Of a stretch of DNA of 64,000 nucleotides, positions 23,559 through 64,000 are shown one piece after another. Each line of letters opens with the position of its first letter. Within the stretch, counting starts at the first letter, position 1. The notes below the pieces were generated by a model. It was not told where the DNA came from. It made no database searches and saw only the letters and a list, made by a program, of their open reading frames with translations. Position numbers and translations under genes: made by a program. The DNA is from Methanocaldococcus lauensis (lineage in GTDB: Archaea > AGJL01 > Methanococci > Methanococcales > Methanocaldococcaceae). The stretch is from contig LR792634.1 in NCBI GenBank assembly GCA_902827205.1, positions 868,001 through 932,000 of the forward strand, in the 5' to 3' direction.

Positions 23559-23860
23559 TTTAAAATTTATTCATAATAATTAATACCAATCTTGGAAATT
23601 TTTAGGAAATATAATAATAAATCATAAAAAAATTAAATTTTTCTTATTATATATTAAGATTCTATAAATATTTAGAATTATTATAATGATTTTTTGATAT
23701 TTTTATTATTTTGTAATAAAAATTTTAGAATTTACCGAGAGTCGTTATTACTTTTAAAATATATGTAAATATAGAAATCTATGGATTTTTATGATACTAA
23801 AATAAAATTAAAAATTTAAATGTTTCCATCCCCTTAGGGGTCTGAGTTTTAAACCCATAG
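23559..23860 (+). repeat. Left arm of a 302-bp perfect inverted repeat (CRISPR array 1 trailer)
   Basis: This segment is identical, base for base by eye, to the reverse complement of 62289-62590. It is AT-rich for its first 260 bases, has no coding capacity, and ends with a variant CRISPR repeat (23822-23854) and the first bases of a palindromic element. Identity stops at 23559 and at 23860 on both arms. It is the leader-distal flank (trailer) of CRISPR array 1. The rest of the gap to the MIP18 gene (23406-23558) is AT-rich without a visible feature. Confidence 0.95.
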
Positions 23861-23931
23861 GGCTCCGCCCTATTGGGATACCCGGGATGCATTGCCTCGC
23901 AATGCTCGGCAATGCCTCTTAATTAATATTA
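23822..23931 (-). repeat. Detached terminal CRISPR repeat and composite palindromic element
   Basis: The repeat copy at 23822-23854 has GAGTTTTAAAC instead of GATTTTAGAC and is the last, degenerate repeat of the array. It is followed by a 77-bp composite element. Its first hairpin is ATAGGGC-TCC-GCCCTAT (23857-23873), then a GGGATACCCGGG link, then GCATTGC (23889-23895) that can pair with GCAATGC at 23899-23905 or 23909-23915, and an end GCCTCTTAATTAATATTA. The same unit, 78 bp, sits at the same place in array 2. It separates the terminal repeat from the array proper. Confidence 0.85.
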
Positions 23932-24929
23932 TTTTCCCCTTAGGGTCTGATTTTAGACTATCAGTATTGATGTTAATTATATGTGTTCGAGAGGAAATCA
24001 TTTTCCATCCCCTTAGGGGTCTGATTTTAGACGTTTTTAATCTACTATTAGCATTAATAAACAAATTATGTTTCCATCCCCTTAGGGGTCTGATTTTAGA
24101 CACTTCATGTATTTTGCCTAAAATTCCAGTTTCTCTGACTTCGTTTCCATCCCCTTAGGGGTCTGATTTTAGACTTGTATGCCCAAGTATGAAATCTATC
24201 AAATATTGGTTTCCATCCCCTTAGGGGTCTGATTTTAGACAAGGACTTGGAGTGACATCAGTAACATCAGAAGATAAAAAAGTTTCCATCCCCTTAGGGG
24301 TCTGATTTTAGACGCGATGAATTAATTAAATGTGCTGTAATATCTGACGAGTTTCCATCCCCTTAGGGGTCTGATTTTAGACGGAGAACATGAAACTAAA
24401 AGAAGAAGTAGCTGAACTAAGGTTTCCATCCCCTTAGGGGTCTGATTTTAGACGGGTGATTTCGCAATGGTTAATAGATATAACAGTGTAAGTTTCCATC
24501 CCCTTAGGGGTCTGATTTTAGACTATAGTCTTCTATAATCTTTCAAAGCGAGCCACAAGTGTTTCCATCCCCTTAGGGGTCTGATTTTAGACTAGACAGT
24601 TTCTTTATTCCTTACTACAATGCATTAAACAGTTTCCATCCCCTTAGGGGTCTGATTTTAGACAAAAAAGATAATGAACTTGCTGATTTTGATGACTTGT
24701 TTCCATCCCCTTAGGGGTCTGATTTTAGACTGAAAGGGGATACTGGATATTATGGGAACTGCTAGTTTCCATCCCCTTAGGGGTCTGATTTTAGACAGTC
24801 TATTATACCAAATGTGTCTGTTGTTATGTCGTTTCCATCCCCTTAGGGGTCTGATTTTAGACATATTTACTCAAATAATTGGCTATGTTATTGGTTTGTT
24901 TCCATCCCCTTAGGGGTCTGATTTTAGAC
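23932..24929 (-). CRISPR. CRISPR array 1, 15 repeats, 14 spacers
   Basis: There are fourteen near-identical 32-bp repeats at 24001, 24070, 24143, 24209, 24282, 24351, 24422, 24492, 24561, 24632, 24699, 24765, 24831 and 24898. One truncated repeat lies at 23932-23958. On the plus strand each begins GTTTCCATCCCCTTAGGGG and ends TCTGATTTTAGAC; the copy at 24001 starts with T. Spacers are 34-42 bp. Read on the minus strand the repeat ends ATGGAAAC, the usual 5' handle of archaeal crRNA. With degenerate repeats on the left and an AT-rich leader on the right, transcription runs right to left. No cas gene is in the window, so the array depends on machinery elsewhere. ORFs here with repeated LRGWK-like peptides are artefacts. 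Confidence 0.97.
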
Positions 24930-25300
24930 AGGGCATAATTTGAAGAAATAAACTTTTAAAATTACTTTATTATGCTTCTTTGTTAGGGGGTTATAGTTTG
25001 GAGGGTCAGTAACCCTTGTTATTTATATACCTCCGAACTTATATATAAACTTTTCTATTTTTATTTATTTGCTTAAAAATCCTTTAAATTTTTAATATCA
25101 ACCTTTTTATCGGGGAAAATTGAAGATAAAAATAAACTATCAAAATCTCCTAAAAATCTCAATAATTTAATAAAACCAAATATTCAAATTAATCAAAATA
25201 GACGACCCTCCGAAATTTAATAAAATCTTTTAAAATTTAAAAATATTAAATTAAAATCCTCTAAATCAAAAAATAACAATTTTTAGCAAGGGAGGAGAGA
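24930..25300 (-). promoter_or_regulatory. Leader of CRISPR array 1
   Basis: The sequence abuts the newest repeat and is nearly the same as the leader of array 2 (61830-62200). It is AT-rich with short GC motifs: TTGGAGGGTC (24998-25007), CCTCCGAAC (25030-25038) and GACCCTCCGAA (25204-25214), the first and last being inverted copies of each other. Minus-strand TATA candidates are GTTTATATATAAG (25038-25050) and GGTATATAAATAAC (25018-25031), oriented into the array. It holds no ORF. Leader function is assigned by position and conservation between the two arrays. Confidence 0.85.
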
Positions 25301-25318
25301 TTATAAAAAAGAATATAT

Positions 25319-25481
25319 TGTTTCGATTGGTGGATTTTATGCCTATAGAGATACTGTTGCTGTTTATAATCTGATAAAAAGATTTCTGGAACTGTTTCCG
25401 TTCAGTCCAAAGTCTAATGAACCTACAGAGAACTTGGTAATCTCGATGAATCTGTAGGTTGAGAACGACCCATTTCTATAG
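25319..25481 (+). pseudogene. Remnant of an IS200/IS605-type TnpB (OrfB) C-terminus
   Basis: Translation reads GGFYAYRDTVAVYNLIKRF, then LELFPFSPKSNEPTENL, to TAG at 25455-25457, with VENDPFL before the next TAG (25479-25481). The pattern CxxCGFxAxRDxVAxxNL is the end of the TnpB zinc ribbon and last RuvC motif. The second cysteine is lost to one extra G in the sequence at 25327-25334, so the remnant is frameshifted and starts only within the zinc ribbon. The rest of the element is gone. It lies directly beside the leader of CRISPR array 1. The remaining bases to the MEMO gene (25482-25561) show nothing further. Confidence 0.65.
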
Positions 25482-48556: not shown

Positions 48557-48890
48557 CCATAGAGGGGGTGAAACCCCCTCTATTGGTATACTTCCCCATT
48601 AGTTTGTATTTTTATTTCCATAGGGCTCTGCCCTATTGTTATACGCCGCATAGAGGGAAACCCTCTATTGCTCCATAGGAGGCTCCGCCCCCTATTGGTA
48701 TACCCCCGAATATTTGCCTTTTTGTTTAATTTTGGGTATCCCGAACCATAGGGGCGTAACCCCTATTGGTATACCCCAAAATTTTTTGATGAACCTTTTA
48801 GAAAAAGGTTCATACCAATAGGACGAAGTCCTATGGTTCGGATACCTGGGATGCATTATCTAGCTTCGCTCGATAATGCCTCTCAAATTA
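48557..48890. repeat. Cluster of GC-rich palindromic elements
   Basis: This gene-free stretch is packed with hairpins. ATAG...CTAT units lie at 48559-48583, 48620-48636, 48650-48668, 48675-48695, 48748-48766 and, in reverse orientation, 48818-48834. Two other hairpins are GAACCTTTT-AGA-AAAAGGTTC (48791-48811) and GCATTATC...GATAATGC (48853-48879). Cores differ (GAGGGGG, GGGC, GAGGG, GGGG, GGAC) but the two arms compensate. Flanks carry CCATAG and CTATTGGTATACC. The unit at 48748 sits in a larger palindrome with outer GGGTAT (48734-48739) and ATACCC (48771-48776). The base composition stands out sharply from the AT-rich surroundings. No ORF is present. Confidence 0.9.
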
Positions 48891-52911: not shown

Positions 52912-52938
52912 GAGTTATTGAATTATACGATATTACGT

Positions 52939-53051
52939 GCCGAGGTGGCTTAGCTGGTTATAGCGCCCGGCTCATACGGATATCCCAGGCATTTACGCCT
53001 GGGTCCTGGGAAACCGGGAGGTCGAGGGTTCGAATCCCTCCCTCGGCACCA
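52939..53051 (+). tRNA. tRNA-Met (CAT), elongator type, with a 36-base intron
   Basis: The gene is 113 bases long including an encoded CCA (53049-53051). The acceptor stem GCCGAGG pairs with CCTCGGC. The anticodon stem is CCCGG with CCGGG (53014-53018) and the loop reads CTCATA-intron-A, with CAT at 52973-52975. The intron, 52977-53012, begins after position 37, the usual archaeal site, and contains a hairpin CCCAGGC-ATTTAC-GCCTGGG. Exon-intron pairing can form a bulge-helix-bulge for the tRNA endonuclease. The T arm is GAGGGTTCGAATCCCTC. The weakly A-rich acceptor of initiator tRNA is absent, which supports elongator. Confidence 0.95.
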
Positions 53052-53300
53052 TTTATTTTATTTTATATCATTATATTCGTTAATTTGAGTATTAGAATAT
53101 AACAATAAAATAAAAAGAAACACTAAAATATCTAAAAAAATTAAGGAGTTCTAAATAAATATCTTATTCTTAAATCCAATTGAAGAGACTATAATGCCAC
53201 AGAAGAGTTATTTAGTATGGAATGCTATAAAAAGAGTTTTATAATTTTTACTTCTATTTCTAAGTAGGTAATACTCCTTATTATGGTCCCATTCGTATTT

Positions 53301-53470
53301 GTTTCCATCCTTGTTTTAATAAACCCATAGGGGGCTCCGCCCCCTATTGGTATCCCGCCCCATAGGAGGATTCCACCCTCCTATTGGTATACCTCCCATA
53401 TTAAGCATGCTTTTTTAATTTAGGGTATAGGGCGTAGCCCTATGGCCATAGGGAGCGGAGCCCCCTATTG
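53301..53470. repeat. Truncated CRISPR-like repeat followed by four palindromic elements
   Basis: A truncated repeat, GTTTCCATCCTTGTTTTAAT then AAAC (53301-53324), runs directly into CCATAG of a palindromic element. Hairpins are at 53327-53347 (ATAGGGGGC-TCC-GCCCCCTAT), 53362-53384 (ATAGGAGG...CCTCCTAT), 53427-53443 (ATAGGGC-GTA-GCCCTAT) and 53448-53468 (ATAGGGAGC... with one mismatch). They share the GGTATACC-type flanks of the 48.6-kb cluster. Between 53052 and 53300 the DNA is AT-rich; a short reading frame ending in YLVWNAIKRVL (stop about 53242) is the only coding-like sign and is not called as a gene. Confidence 0.85.
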
Positions 53471-53496
53471 GTATACCCCATTTATTTTTAGTAATT

Positions 53497-53636
53497 ATCC
53501 TTGTTTTAATGGACAACCAATTCAAACTGTTTTAATGGACTAAGTATTCAAACACGGACAAGGAGAAATTATTGATATAAAAGGATTGAAATGGGACGGG
53601 TTTCCATCCTTATTTTAATGGACTAACGATTCAAAC
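53497..53636 (-). CRISPR. Decayed mini-CRISPR of a second repeat family
   Basis: One full 37-bp repeat at 53600-53636 starts GTTTCCATCCTTATTTTAAT and ends GGACTAACGATTCAAAC. Two partial copies lie at 53497-53527 (TATCCTTGTTTTAATGGAC start, ATTCAAAC end) and 53528-53553 (TGTTTTAATGGACTAAG start). One apparent spacer (53554-53599, 46 bp) separates the last two. On the minus strand the repeat ends GGATGGAAAC, like the two large arrays, so orientation is probably the same. The copies differ from each other at several bases and are degenerate. No cas gene is nearby. Confidence 0.7.
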
Positions 53637-54203
53637 CCTACCAACTATTGCTTATTTTATACTCGAACTCCTATATAAATCTTTCTTTTAACATCCGATT
53701 TTTCTGACTGCCTGATTATCAAAGTATTTATAAGAGTAAGAAAGGTTGTGCTAACTATTTATAAATCCAATACACAACCATAAACAAAAATCTCAATAAT
53801 CAAACCTTATTTTATATATTTAAAAATAAAACTAAACTTAAAATTATAAAAATAAAAATAAATAACTAAAATCTCTAAAAAATCTAAATTTTAATAAGAA
53901 AAAAATAGTAATACTTTTTATCAATTTTCTAGTACCAAATCCAAACAACCCCTTTATAAATGCAAGAAAGTAAAATTAAAAAATCTAATATATATACTAA
54001 AAACTTTATTTACAACATATTCTTTCTATTAACTCTAATATCCATAGGGAATTTCTCATTCTCAATAATATCAAAAATTAAATCAACAAATTTATTGGCT
54101 TCTTCAAAATCTTTTTGTTTAAAGTTGTTGTATTTTAGTTTTAATTTTTATAAAGTAGTGAATGTAATAAATAAAATAACGATTAAAATTTTATGGTGTA
54201 ACA
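53637..54203. other. Gene-poor AT-rich region, possible old leader and a coding remnant
   Basis: The first part follows the decayed repeats and could be the remains of their leader; CTATATAAAT (53671-53680) is a TATA-like sequence. On the minus strand, bases about 54150 to 54012 read through as QKDFEEANKFVDLIFDIIEN and on to KNML and a stop, with no start codon; this looks like a gene fragment of unknown family. The plus-strand 106-codon frame across 53960-54280 overlaps ubiX in another phase, has no ribosome binding site and is not accepted. The ubiX promoter should lie near 54150. Confidence 0.4.
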
Positions 54204-60223: not shown

Positions 60224-60334
60224 GTTTCCATCCCCTTAGGGGTCTGAGTTTTAAACCCATAGGGCTCCGCCCTATTGGGATACCCGGGATGCATTGCTTC
60301 GCTACCGCTCAGCAATGCCTCTTAATTAATATTA
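60224..60334 (-). repeat. Detached terminal CRISPR repeat and composite palindromic element, array 2
   Basis: The variant repeat at 60224-60256 (with GAGTTTTAAAC) is the same as in array 1. It is followed by a 78-bp composite element: hairpin ATAGGGC-TCC-GCCCTAT (60259-60275), the link GGGATACCCGGG, and a second hairpin GCATTGCT...AGCAATGC, ending GCCTCTTAATTAATATTA. Compared with the array 1 unit, the two differ only inside the second hairpin. The shared unit shows that both arrays descend from one duplicated locus. Confidence 0.85.
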
Positions 60335-61829
60335 TTTTCCCTTAGGGGTCTGATTTTAGACCACATAATTTTGTTTTTAATAGTGAAGAAGAACTTAAGT
60401 TTCCATCCCCTTAGGGGTCTGATTTTAGACGGTTTAAGTATTTTATGTATATTTTCTAAGATCTCTTGTTTCCATCCCCTTAGGGGTCTGATTTTAGACA
60501 TTATGTATGTTTTTTGCCTTGTTGCTCCTGCTGTGAAGTTTCCATCCCCTTAGGGGTCTGATTTTAGACTATCGTGGAACTCATCTAATTTTTTATGTAT
60601 CTCAGGTTTCCATCCCCTTAGGGGTCTGATTTTAGACGTGTGTGTGTTCTGTGTTTCCAACCTCTGTGGCTGTATGTTTCCATCCCCTTAGGGGTCTGAT
60701 TTTAGACATGGTTTTAATTTTAATTTTAATTTTGGTTTTTGTTTGTTTCCATCCCCTTAGGGGTCTGATTTTAGACTTTTTATCAAAGGCTTCCTTGCCA
60801 TAACATCACCAAAAGAAGTTTCCATCCCCTTAGGGGTCTGATTTTAGACTAGACTATTGAACACAGTTAATTTCCTGCTTTCTAAAAAACTTTTTAAGTT
60901 TCCATCCCCTTAGGGGTCTGATTTTAGACCACATAATTTTGTTTTTAATAGTGAAGAAGAACTTAAGTTTCCATCCCCTTAGGGGTCTGATTTTAGACGG
61001 AATGAAATAAGGTTTCTAACTGGACATTTATGTTATGTTTCCATCCCCTTAGGGGTCTGATTTTAGACGAAAACCAAAAAGATATTTATTAACTGATAGA
61101 AAACTGTTTCCATCCCCTTAGGGGTCTGATTTTAGACGGACACCCAAAGGTTTTTTATAGTTTCAACATCTATGTTTGTTTCCATCCCCTTAGGGGTCTG
61201 ATTTTAGACTTCCAGATAGCTATTTTAAGACGAGAACCTTAGAGGAGTTTCCATCCCCTTAGGGGTCTGATTTTAGACATTAGAGCAAAAACCATTTGAC
61301 TTTGTAGAACTAGTTTCCATCCCCTTAGGGGTCTGATTTTAGACGTATAAACTGTAAAAAACAAAAAATAAATCTGAAGAAGAGTTTCCATCCCCTTAGG
61401 GGTCTGATTTTAGACTTTTAGTTCTTCTTGCAGTATGCTTATGTGGTATGCGTTTCCATCCCCTTAGGGGTCTGATTTTAGACTTTTCCGCCCTCGATAA
61501 CTGTTAATGAGCCTCCAGCGTTTCCATCCCCTTAGGGGTCTGATTTTAGACTGGTATAGTGCAACTTTCAATGGAAGTAGTTCAACAAAGTTTCCATCCC
61601 CTTAGGGGTCTGATTTTAGACAGCGGACTTAATATAAAAAATCTTTTATTAATCAAGAGGCGTTTCCATCCCCTTAGGGGTCTGATTTTAGACAAAATCT
61701 TTGCTAATGACGTTGCTTTTTTTAATGTGTTTCCATCCCCTTAGGGGTCTGATTTTAGACTTCCAGATAGCTATTTTAAGACGAGAACCTTAGAGGAGTT
61801 TCCATCCCCTTAGGGGTCTGATTTTAGAC
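60335..61829 (-). CRISPR. CRISPR array 2, 22 repeats, 21 spacers
   Basis: The array has the same 32-bp repeat as array 1. Full repeats start at 60399, 60468, 60538, 60606, 60676, 60745, 60818, 60898, 60967, 61037, 61106, 61178, 61247, 61313, 61384, 61452, 61520, 61590, 61662, 61729 and 61798; a truncated copy is at 60335-60361. Spacers are 34-48 bp. Counting from the leader, spacers 1 and 9 are identical, as are 13 and 21. No spacer of array 1 recurs here that I could see. The leader at 61830 places transcription on the minus strand. No cas gene is in the window. Confidence 0.97.
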
Positions 61830-62200: not shown

Positions 62201-62211
62201 TTATGAAAAAG

Positions 62212-62288
62212 AGGCATTGCTTCCTTTAGGAAGCAATGCATCGGGAGTATAGCAATAGAGGGTTTCCCTCTATGCGGTGTGGAGATCA
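62212..62288 (-). repeat. Composite palindromic element, inverted copy
   Basis: In reverse orientation relative to the elements at 23855 and 60257, this holds AGAGGCATTGC followed by hairpin GCATTGCTTCC-TTTA-GGAAGCAATGC (62214-62239), a short link, and hairpin ATAGAGGG-TTT-CCCTCTAT (62255-62273). The order (GCATT hairpin, link, ATAG hairpin) is the exact mirror of the array elements. It lies between the leader of array 2 and the right arm of the large inverted repeat. Confidence 0.85.
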
Positions 62289-62590
62289 CTATGGGTTTAA
62301 AACTCAGACCCCTAAGGGGATGGAAACATTTAAATTTTTAATTTTATTTTAGTATCATAAAAATCCATAGATTTCTATATTTACATATATTTTAAAAGTA
62401 ATAACGACTCTCGGTAAATTCTAAAATTTTTATTACAAAATAATAAAAATATCAAAAAATCATTATAATAATTCTAAATATTTATAGAATCTTAATATAT
62501 AATAAGAAAAATTTAATTTTTTTATGATTTATTATTATATTTCCTAAAAATTTCCAAGATTGGTATTAATTATTATGAATAAATTTTAAA
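62289..62590 (-). repeat. Right arm of the 302-bp perfect inverted repeat
   Basis: This segment is the exact reverse complement of 23559-23860. It includes an inverted copy of the variant terminal CRISPR repeat (about 62295-62327) and the AT-rich trailer that follows it. There is no array attached to this terminal repeat. The arm ends 78 bases before topA; the bases between carry the topA promoter region. Confidence 0.95.
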
Positions 62591-62668: not shown

Positions 62669-64000
62669 ATGAGTGTTTTAATTATTTGTGAAAAGCCAAG
62701 TGTTGCTAAAAAAATAGCCAATGCTTTGGGAAAACCTAAGAAAAAAACTATCTATAATGTTCCATACTACGAATTGGAAAGAAATGGAAAAAAAATTATT
62801 GTTGCGAGTGCAGTTGGGCATTTATTTACGCTTGTTGAAAAAAACAATACTAAATTTGGACATTATCCTGTTTTTAATGTAAAATGGGCGCCAGCAAGTG
62901 TTGAAAAAGGAAAAAAATATGTTGATAACTATATAAAGGCATTAAAAAAACTTTCTAAGGAGGTAGATGAAATATATATAGCAACAGATTGGGATATTGA
63001 GGGAGAATTAATAGGTTTTCACGCATTGAAATACTGTTGTGGTAAGACAAAGGCTAAGAGAATGAGATTTTCCTCATTAACAAAAAATGAAATTATAAAA
63101 GCGTTTGAAAATCCTGATGAAATAGATTATGGTTTAGTTGATGCTGGAGAGAGTAGGCATATCATAGATTGGTATTATGGAATAAACTTATCAAGGGCTT
63201 TAATGAATGCTATTAAGGCAGTAAATCAATGGAAAACAATGAGTGTTGGTAGAGTTCAAGGACCAGCATTAGCTTTTTTAACTGAGAGAGAGTTGGAAAT
63301 TAAAAAATTTGTTCCAAAGCCATACTGGGTTATTGAGGCATTATTAAAGGATAATTTAAAGGTAATACATGAAAAAGAGAAATTTTGGGACGAAAAAGAA
63401 GCTAAAAATGTTTATGAAAAAGTAAAAAATGAAAAGTTTGGGAAGGTTGTAGAGATAAAAAGAACTGTGAGAAAGATAAAGCCACTCCCTCCTTTTGACT
63501 TAGGAACTTTACAGAGAGAGGCATACAACTATTTTAAGTTTTCTCCAAAGGAAACCCAAGAAATTGCCCAAAGTTTGTATGAAAAAGGTTTATGTTTGCA
63601 TCCAGATACATTAATTTTATTACCTGATGGAGTTAAGAAAATTAAGGATTTGGATGAAGAAGGAAATATTTTATGTTTAAATAAGGATCTAAAATTAGCA
63701 AAATCAAAATATAAACTTTTAAAAAGAACAGTAAAAGAGAAACTAATAAAAATTACCTTAAATGATGGAACAGAACTTATTGCAACAAAAGAGCATCCAA
63801 TTTTGGTCTATAGGGATAAGTTAATATTTGTTCCTTCTGGAGAGTTGAAAGAAAATGAACAAGTAGTAACACTTAGTTATGGAGAGGTTTATATCCAAAA
63901 AATTAAAAAAATTGAAGAAATTAATTATGAAGGAGAGGTTTATGATTTAACAGTTGAAAAATACCACAACTTTATAGCCAATGGTGTAGTTGTGCATAAC
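62669..64000 (+). CDS. topA: DNA topoisomerase I (type IA), partial, with intein
   Basis: The gene starts at ATG 62669 (MSVLIICEKPSVAKKIANAL) behind GTGAAACT and runs off the window. The Toprim domain shows ICEKPSVAKKIA and the metal-binding DxDxEGE-type ATDWDIEGELIGFHALKY. Further type IA parts are ESRHIIDWYYGINLSRALM, MSVGRVQGPALAFLTERE and PPFDLGTLQREAYNYFKFSP. At codon 309 the frame passes from ...SLYEKGL into an intein. The catalytic tyrosine (in the SYPRTSS-type motif expected next) lies beyond the window. The enzyme relaxes negatively supercoiled DNA. Confidence 0.93.
   Translation, partial: MSVLIICEKPSVAKKIANALGKPKKKTIYNVPYYELERNGKKIIVASAVGHLFTLVEKNNTKFGHYPVFNVKWAPASVEKGKKYVDNYIKALKKLSKEVDEIYIATDWDIEGELIGFHALKYCCGKTKAKRMRFSSLTKNEIIKAFENPDEIDYGLVDAGESRHIIDWYYGINLSRALMNAIKAVNQWKTMSVGRVQGPALAFLTERELEIKKFVPKPYWVIEALLKDNLKVIHEKEKFWDEKEAKNVYEKVKNEKFGKVVEIKRTVRKIKPLPPFDLGTLQREAYNYFKFSPKETQEIAQSLYEKGLCLHPDTLILLPDGVKKIKDLDEEGNILCLNKDLKLAKSKYKLLKRTVKEKLIKITLNDGTELIATKEHPILVYRDKLIFVPSGELKENEQVVTLSYGEVYIQKIKKIEEINYEGEVYDLTVEKYHNFIANGVVVHN
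63593..64000 (+). mobile_element. Mini-intein in topA
   Basis: The intein begins with Cys (CLHPDTLILLPDGVKKIKDL) after LYEKGL and ends FIANGVVVHN, the last codon being the last three bases of the window. It has 136 residues. Block B is LIATKEHPILVY and block F is NYEGEVYDLTVEKYHNF. There is no LAGLIDADG endonuclease between them, so it is a natural mini-intein that can splice but not home. The next residue, needed as nucleophile (Cys, Ser or Thr), is outside the window. It interrupts the region just before the catalytic tyrosine motif. Confidence 0.9.

Follow-up and report, generated by a model that had tools for sequence, protein, structure and literature searches.

Two CRISPR arrays in this DNA end, on the side away from the leader, in the same small palindromic element, which raises the question of whether the element is part of the CRISPR locus or has been inserted there. 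The window analyzed was the whole 64-kb stretch, positions 868001–932000 of the 1.48-Mb source genome (G000, contig C1). At array 1, a variant terminal repeat (TTTCCATCCCCTTAGGGGTCTGAGTTTTAAAC, 23823–23854, + strand) is followed directly by a 65-bp composite element of two hairpins (23855–23919, +). Hairpin A (CCATAGGGCTCCGCCCTATTGG, 23855–23876, +) has one bulged T and is joined by a link to hairpin B (GATGCATTGC..GCAATGCCTC, 23886–23918, +), after which an AT-rich tail (23920–23931, +) fills the space up to a shortened first repeat (TTTTCCCCTTAGGGTCTGATTTTAGAC, 23932–23958, +). The shortened repeat is continuous with the array, and normal spacers and repeats extend beyond it as far as the leader. 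The trailer of array 2 (60225–60361, +) has the same order, with a terminal variant repeat at 60225–60256, the element at 60257–60322, and a shortened repeat at 60335–60361 (all +). The sequence-only reading had placed the element exactly between the variant terminal repeat and the shortened repeat of both arrays, and this arrangement was seen at each (23823–23958 and 60225–60361). A further copy, reported beside an inverted trailer at 62212, was also found. This trailer is found immediately beyond the leader of array 2 (62210–62326, −) and comprises an inverted terminal repeat (62295–62326, −), a CCATAG remnant (62276–62294, −), and then a different, extra hairpin (GCATAGAGGG) with hairpin B (62210–62275, −); its outer flank matches that of the array 1 trailer.

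Four occurrences of AAACCCATAG were found in the window, at 23851 (+), 53321 (+), 60253 (+), and 62289 (−), against 0.18 expected, and none of 100 shuffles reached four. In G000 as a whole there are 19, some of which are ordinary sequence without a hairpin. The occurrence at 53321 lies in a decayed second CRISPR repeat family, where A-type hairpins (53325–53356, 53360–53387, and 53446–53472) occupy a region at 53302–53514 (+), with a repeat remnant at 53302–53324 and a repeat copy from about 53495 (both +). The AAAC-CCATAG junction claimed at 53324 is present, but its AAAC matches the middle of the family-2 repeat (..TTTTAATGGAC..) and not the repeat end, which is ATTCAAAC. As this AAAC is mid-repeat, the identity of the junction is partly coincidence. 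Paralogous family-2 remnants with A-type hairpins were found at three loci (genome 352.6 kb, window 53300–53640, and genome 1191.0–1191.3 kb), with a matching flank of only about 14–20 bp, and these copies are an insertion separate from the family-1 trailers. The AAAC junction was rejected as a specific target, as many different sequences precede other copies of the element. The window also holds an intergenic cluster of these hairpin modules away from any CRISPR, at 48558–48884 (composite match at 48816–48883, +).

The unit consists of two imperfect hairpins, A then B. Hairpin A, of the form NCATAG..CTATTGN′, carries a single bulged T and leads into (G/T)ATACC; hairpin B contains one mismatch. 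Across 27 distinct copies, 97.7% of cells in the composite stems pair and the stems covary, with 33 double-change cells compared to 6.4 after shuffling; shifting the stem partner destroys the pairing. Further covariation was detected in hairpin A alone, over 25 variants. The same hairpin A also precedes alternative right-hand hairpins ending GGAGGTGTAAAT or GCCCCACTTT. Hairpin A is a constant left module that starts exactly at CCATAG, and the right hairpin B is interchangeable. Membership of a known structured RNA family was rejected, as an Rfam search returned no curated family and no match above threshold, yielding only CRISPR-repeat models below threshold and a single weak match to an sRNA.

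Across G000, which was read in the stretches surrounding search hits, the trailer element was found in 7 of 10 family-1 arrays, at 138.8, 261, 293.6, 891.8, 928.2, and 1232.8 kb and, as hairpin B alone, at 824.5 kb, and additionally at three relics that have no array (9.1, 749.9, and 930.3 kb). The claim that four of four CRISPR-related ends carry the element holds inside the window but not genome-wide, where arrays of the same family at 64.5, 320.6, and 321.8 kb lack it. Junctions and tail are identical at 138.8, 261, 293.4, 293.6, 891.8, 928.2, and 1232.8 kb, which makes a single insertion followed by copying the simplest account of the family-1 trailers. At 293.4/293.6 kb (genome 293385–293634, L074), the series of terminal repeat, element, repeat, and spacer stands in tandem, spacer included. 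Element identity was 0.945 and 0.925 within a genome, slightly above the 0.912 of orthologous loci, and at one locus with a 97% identical flank a different element is present in G005, a genome of the same species. Because of these two observations, the sequences point to exchange of elements among trailers.

The element could instead be a functional CRISPR trailer that delimits the array or terminates the pre-crRNA and has been kept by selection. Its position at the end of the array transcript, with the leader on the other side, would suit such a role, as would its two strong hairpins and its presence at 7 of 10 arrays of G000 and at all trailers examined in another species (G009). However, the array at 320.6 kb, with 28 repeats and the same leader as the element-bearing arrays, has no element, and the element is kept in places where the array is gone. 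In G005, array 1 of the window has been lost together with its leader (about 23957–25476) and the trailer element has been kept, and two relics of G000 are full arrays in G005; the trailer element thus does not depend on the array, nor does it protect it. Trailers also mark the sites of lost arrays.

The dispersal of the element was counted by covariance model search in 14 genomes of the family, and then in the rest of the order. Between 9 and 64 matches per genome were found in 11 of the 14 family genomes, and 0–1 in the other three. Beyond the family, matches occurred only in one other genus, with none elsewhere in the order. Most copies genus-wide sit at gene or tRNA edges. G004, which we take to be M. 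jannaschii, has 64 model matches, yet none of its 12 CRISPR trailers carries the element, and the same is true of all 7 trailers in G010 (some of them contig fragments), though dozens of copies lie elsewhere in that genome. In G009, a similar element is present in all trailers examined, and by eye its flank resembles that in G000. Given this pattern, the CRISPR-trailer copy is an old, lineage-specific event and not a general CRISPR feature. The empty trailers of G004 and G010, alongside the same hairpin unit at genes and tRNAs across the genus, make a functional trailer very unlikely. A role in bounding the array, as suggested from the sequence, is contradicted by the trailers that lack the element in G004, G010, and three arrays of G000. 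The suggestion of a targeted insertion was right as to insertion, as the unit is mobile and makes long target duplications (described below), but not as to CRISPR targeting, given the location of most copies at gene or tRNA edges and the trailers without the element in G004 (0/12) and G010 (0/7). A viral carrier was also rejected, as no exact match to the element was found among viral contigs. Separately, we note model matches within about 100–200 bp of cas1 in three species (G004:C1:343792–343855, G011:C39:9009–9073, and G013:C1:2187–2236).

Outside CRISPR loci, long direct duplications of the target, imperfect in sequence, lie on either side of the element. In a first set, a flank duplication scoring at least 30 was found for 23 of 39 non-CRISPR composites, against 1.6% of mismatched flank pairs, with CRISPR loci left out. 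A fresh set, picked afterwards from the covariance model search, gave 28 of 41 with a flank duplication (24 abutting) against a 1.5% null, and included copies in another genus with 33 and 34 bp duplicated. The 35 independent events with an abutting duplication had a median aligned length of 42 bp (IQR 34–49, range 20–71), and in 31 of them the left copy ended ≤3 bp from the start of the element. No flank duplication was seen for roughly a third to two fifths of copies, which are old, nested, or mis-bounded. For 12 loci, the predicted empty site (left flank, one target copy, and right flank) was searched for in the family, and uninterrupted matches were found in other species for most of them. 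The site of L140 (G001:802456) is empty in G006 at 95% identity, with 33 bp duplicated, and that of L141 (G001:1208375) is empty in G006 at 94% and in G002, with 43 bp duplicated. The G004:459228 site is empty in G002 and G006 (35–50 bp duplicated), and the G004:1446312 site is empty in G001, G000, G006, and G011 (40–64 bp duplicated); at other loci, 27–64 bp are duplicated, depending on the relative compared. As their orthologous sites in other species are uninterrupted, these copies are insertions into formerly single-copy sequence. The G004 ortholog of the L141 site (L189, G004:C1:601700–602450) is itself briefly interrupted, with a duplication of about 67 bp of the query, and may have received an insertion independently in the same place.

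Typically, what has been duplicated is ~40 bp at the beginning or end of a gene, or else the end of a tRNA gene; one target copy remains with the gene body and the other decays. Of the 28 independent events for which polarity could be decided, 26 have the intact gene on the side of hairpin B (p = 3e-6); polarity was judged by open reading frame length, and 7 events were undecided. In two longer multi-module insertions, one at tRNA-Ile and one at tRNA-Ala, the gene body is on the A side. The CRISPR copy follows the polarity rule, with the array next to hairpin B and the variant repeat, which has decayed, next to hairpin A. By analogy with the non-CRISPR sites, the variant and shortened repeats fit a target duplication, and we read them as its A-side and B-side copies, respectively. 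No empty orthologous CRISPR trailer was found in the related genomes examined, so the duplication at arrays is inseparable from the intrinsic repetition of an array.

We consider it highly probable that the element is a non-autonomous mobile hairpin unit of a genus-wide family, and that its presence in CRISPR reflects one ancient insertion, copied with the arrays. Insertion would leave the target, usually 30–50 bp at a gene or tRNA edge, on both sides of the element, an arrangement that suggests opposite-strand nicks about 40 bp apart (30–50 bp) followed by gap filling. In CRISPR, one ancient insertion may have entered the leader-distal repeat of an ancestral array, where the duplicated target would be the repeat, perhaps with a little flank. 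The variant terminal repeat would then be what decay has left of the outer target copy, and the truncated repeat would derive from the array-side copy; the whole trailer would have been copied and homogenized as arrays multiplied, outliving those that were deleted. The outcome set against the sequence-only reading, that most other arrays lack the element and that its four cases come from a single duplication, largely holds: the family-1 cases would be one insertion copied, and the family-2 case is separate.

The long duplications could also have arisen through break repair, by filling of wide staggered ends or by template switching, which captured hairpin DNA with no dedicated enzyme. Duplications of variable length, variable filler at the B end, and AT-rich targets would all be consistent with repair, but the constant left end (≤3 bp in 31/35) and near-fixed polarity are unlike random capture, and we find this explanation possible but rather doubtful. 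Alternatively, Cas1-Cas2 or a Cas1-like integrase might place the hairpin unit into ordinary sites as an oversized “spacer.” As in spacer integration, where a repeat-length tract is duplicated on both sides with fixed polarity, this would account for long target duplications and fixed polarity (here 26:2, with duplications of CRISPR-repeat order), and Cas1 is encoded in all 11 element-rich genomes and missing from two of the three element-poor ones. Spacer integration, however, uses a fixed ruler and a repeat- and leader-specific target, whereas the element has diverse targets and duplications of 20–71 bp (median 42), not fixed near a 30-bp repeat. In addition, the inserted unit is longer than spacers, and G003 has two Cas1 genes and no elements, leaving this proposal decidedly unlikely. 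A broader version, in which a Cas1-Cas2-like or unrecognized archaeal integrase making ~40-bp staggered nicks mobilizes protein-free hairpin DNA chromosome-wide with nearly fixed polarity, is a long shot; if true, CRISPR trailers and ordinary gene edges would be targets of one reaction. IS200/IS605-type ends are imperfect hairpins with a bulge, which the imperfect hairpins and conserved bulge seen here resemble, and single-strand transposition of this type, or a REP/RAYT-like system, could act through a Y1 transposase in trans. That mechanism, however, is not known to leave a target duplication, and it seems scarcely credible here. The Y1 transposase was rejected as mobilizer on its distribution, as it is absent from G000 and found in only 2 of 14 genomes.

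Some properties of our preferred mobile hairpin unit have precedents. The IS4-related IS1634 and IS1549 have long direct repeats of variable length, reported at 8–514 bp and mechanistically unexplained (PMC2266710), and long, variable target duplications were also found for the element. Unlike the element, each is a complete insertion sequence that encodes a DDE transposase. Matches to DDE_Tnp_1 were obtained in 5 of the 14 genomes, the one in G000 being degenerate and under the cut-off, and this IS4-type transposase was rejected as mobilizer because its genes do not track the element. The Yersinia palindromic sequence YPAL/RU-2 (PMC2229807) shares internal palindromes and variable target duplications with the element, but is 168 bp long, has duplications of 3–26 bp, and differs in lineage and sequence. 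The unit is also distinct from a MITE, as its ends are different internal hairpins, not terminal inverted repeats, and its duplications span 20–71 bp, not a short fixed length. It probably belongs to the palindromic repetitive elements of M. jannaschii (MJRE; Suyama, Lathe and Bork 2005, cited in PMC2229807), which are likewise short dispersed palindromic elements of the same genus and are also found fused into protein genes (PMC2229807). The link between the two lies in the published description of MJRE, not in a consensus sequence. A literature search that covered few subscription papers found no account of the long duplications at the target, of empty sites, of the polarity, or of copies in CRISPR trailers. 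Duplication of such a long target thus appears to be an undescribed property of an already known kind of repeat.

Most lists of short palindromic repeats of archaea offer no mechanism. For this family a mechanism becomes testable, thanks to its readable empty sites, constant left end, median duplication of 42 bp, and strong polarity, and the family explains how repeats of this kind can occupy the edges of genes and tRNAs and leave the gene undamaged. A warning also follows for CRISPR annotation, as degenerate “terminal repeats” and conserved trailers can be insertion scars and not functional parts.

Finally, we note some minor features. At three arrays, elements lie just beyond the far end of the leader (window 62210–62275, genome 65467–65532, and G005:C1 847501–847529), inverted relative to the trailer copy and at a nearly identical leader position. 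By eye, window 62671–64000 holds a topoisomerase-like gene with an apparent intein (LCLHPDTLILLPDG.. followed by a splicing-domain-like stretch), and window 52938–53050 a probable intron-containing tRNA-Met with a CAT anticodon, which ARAGORN did not report.
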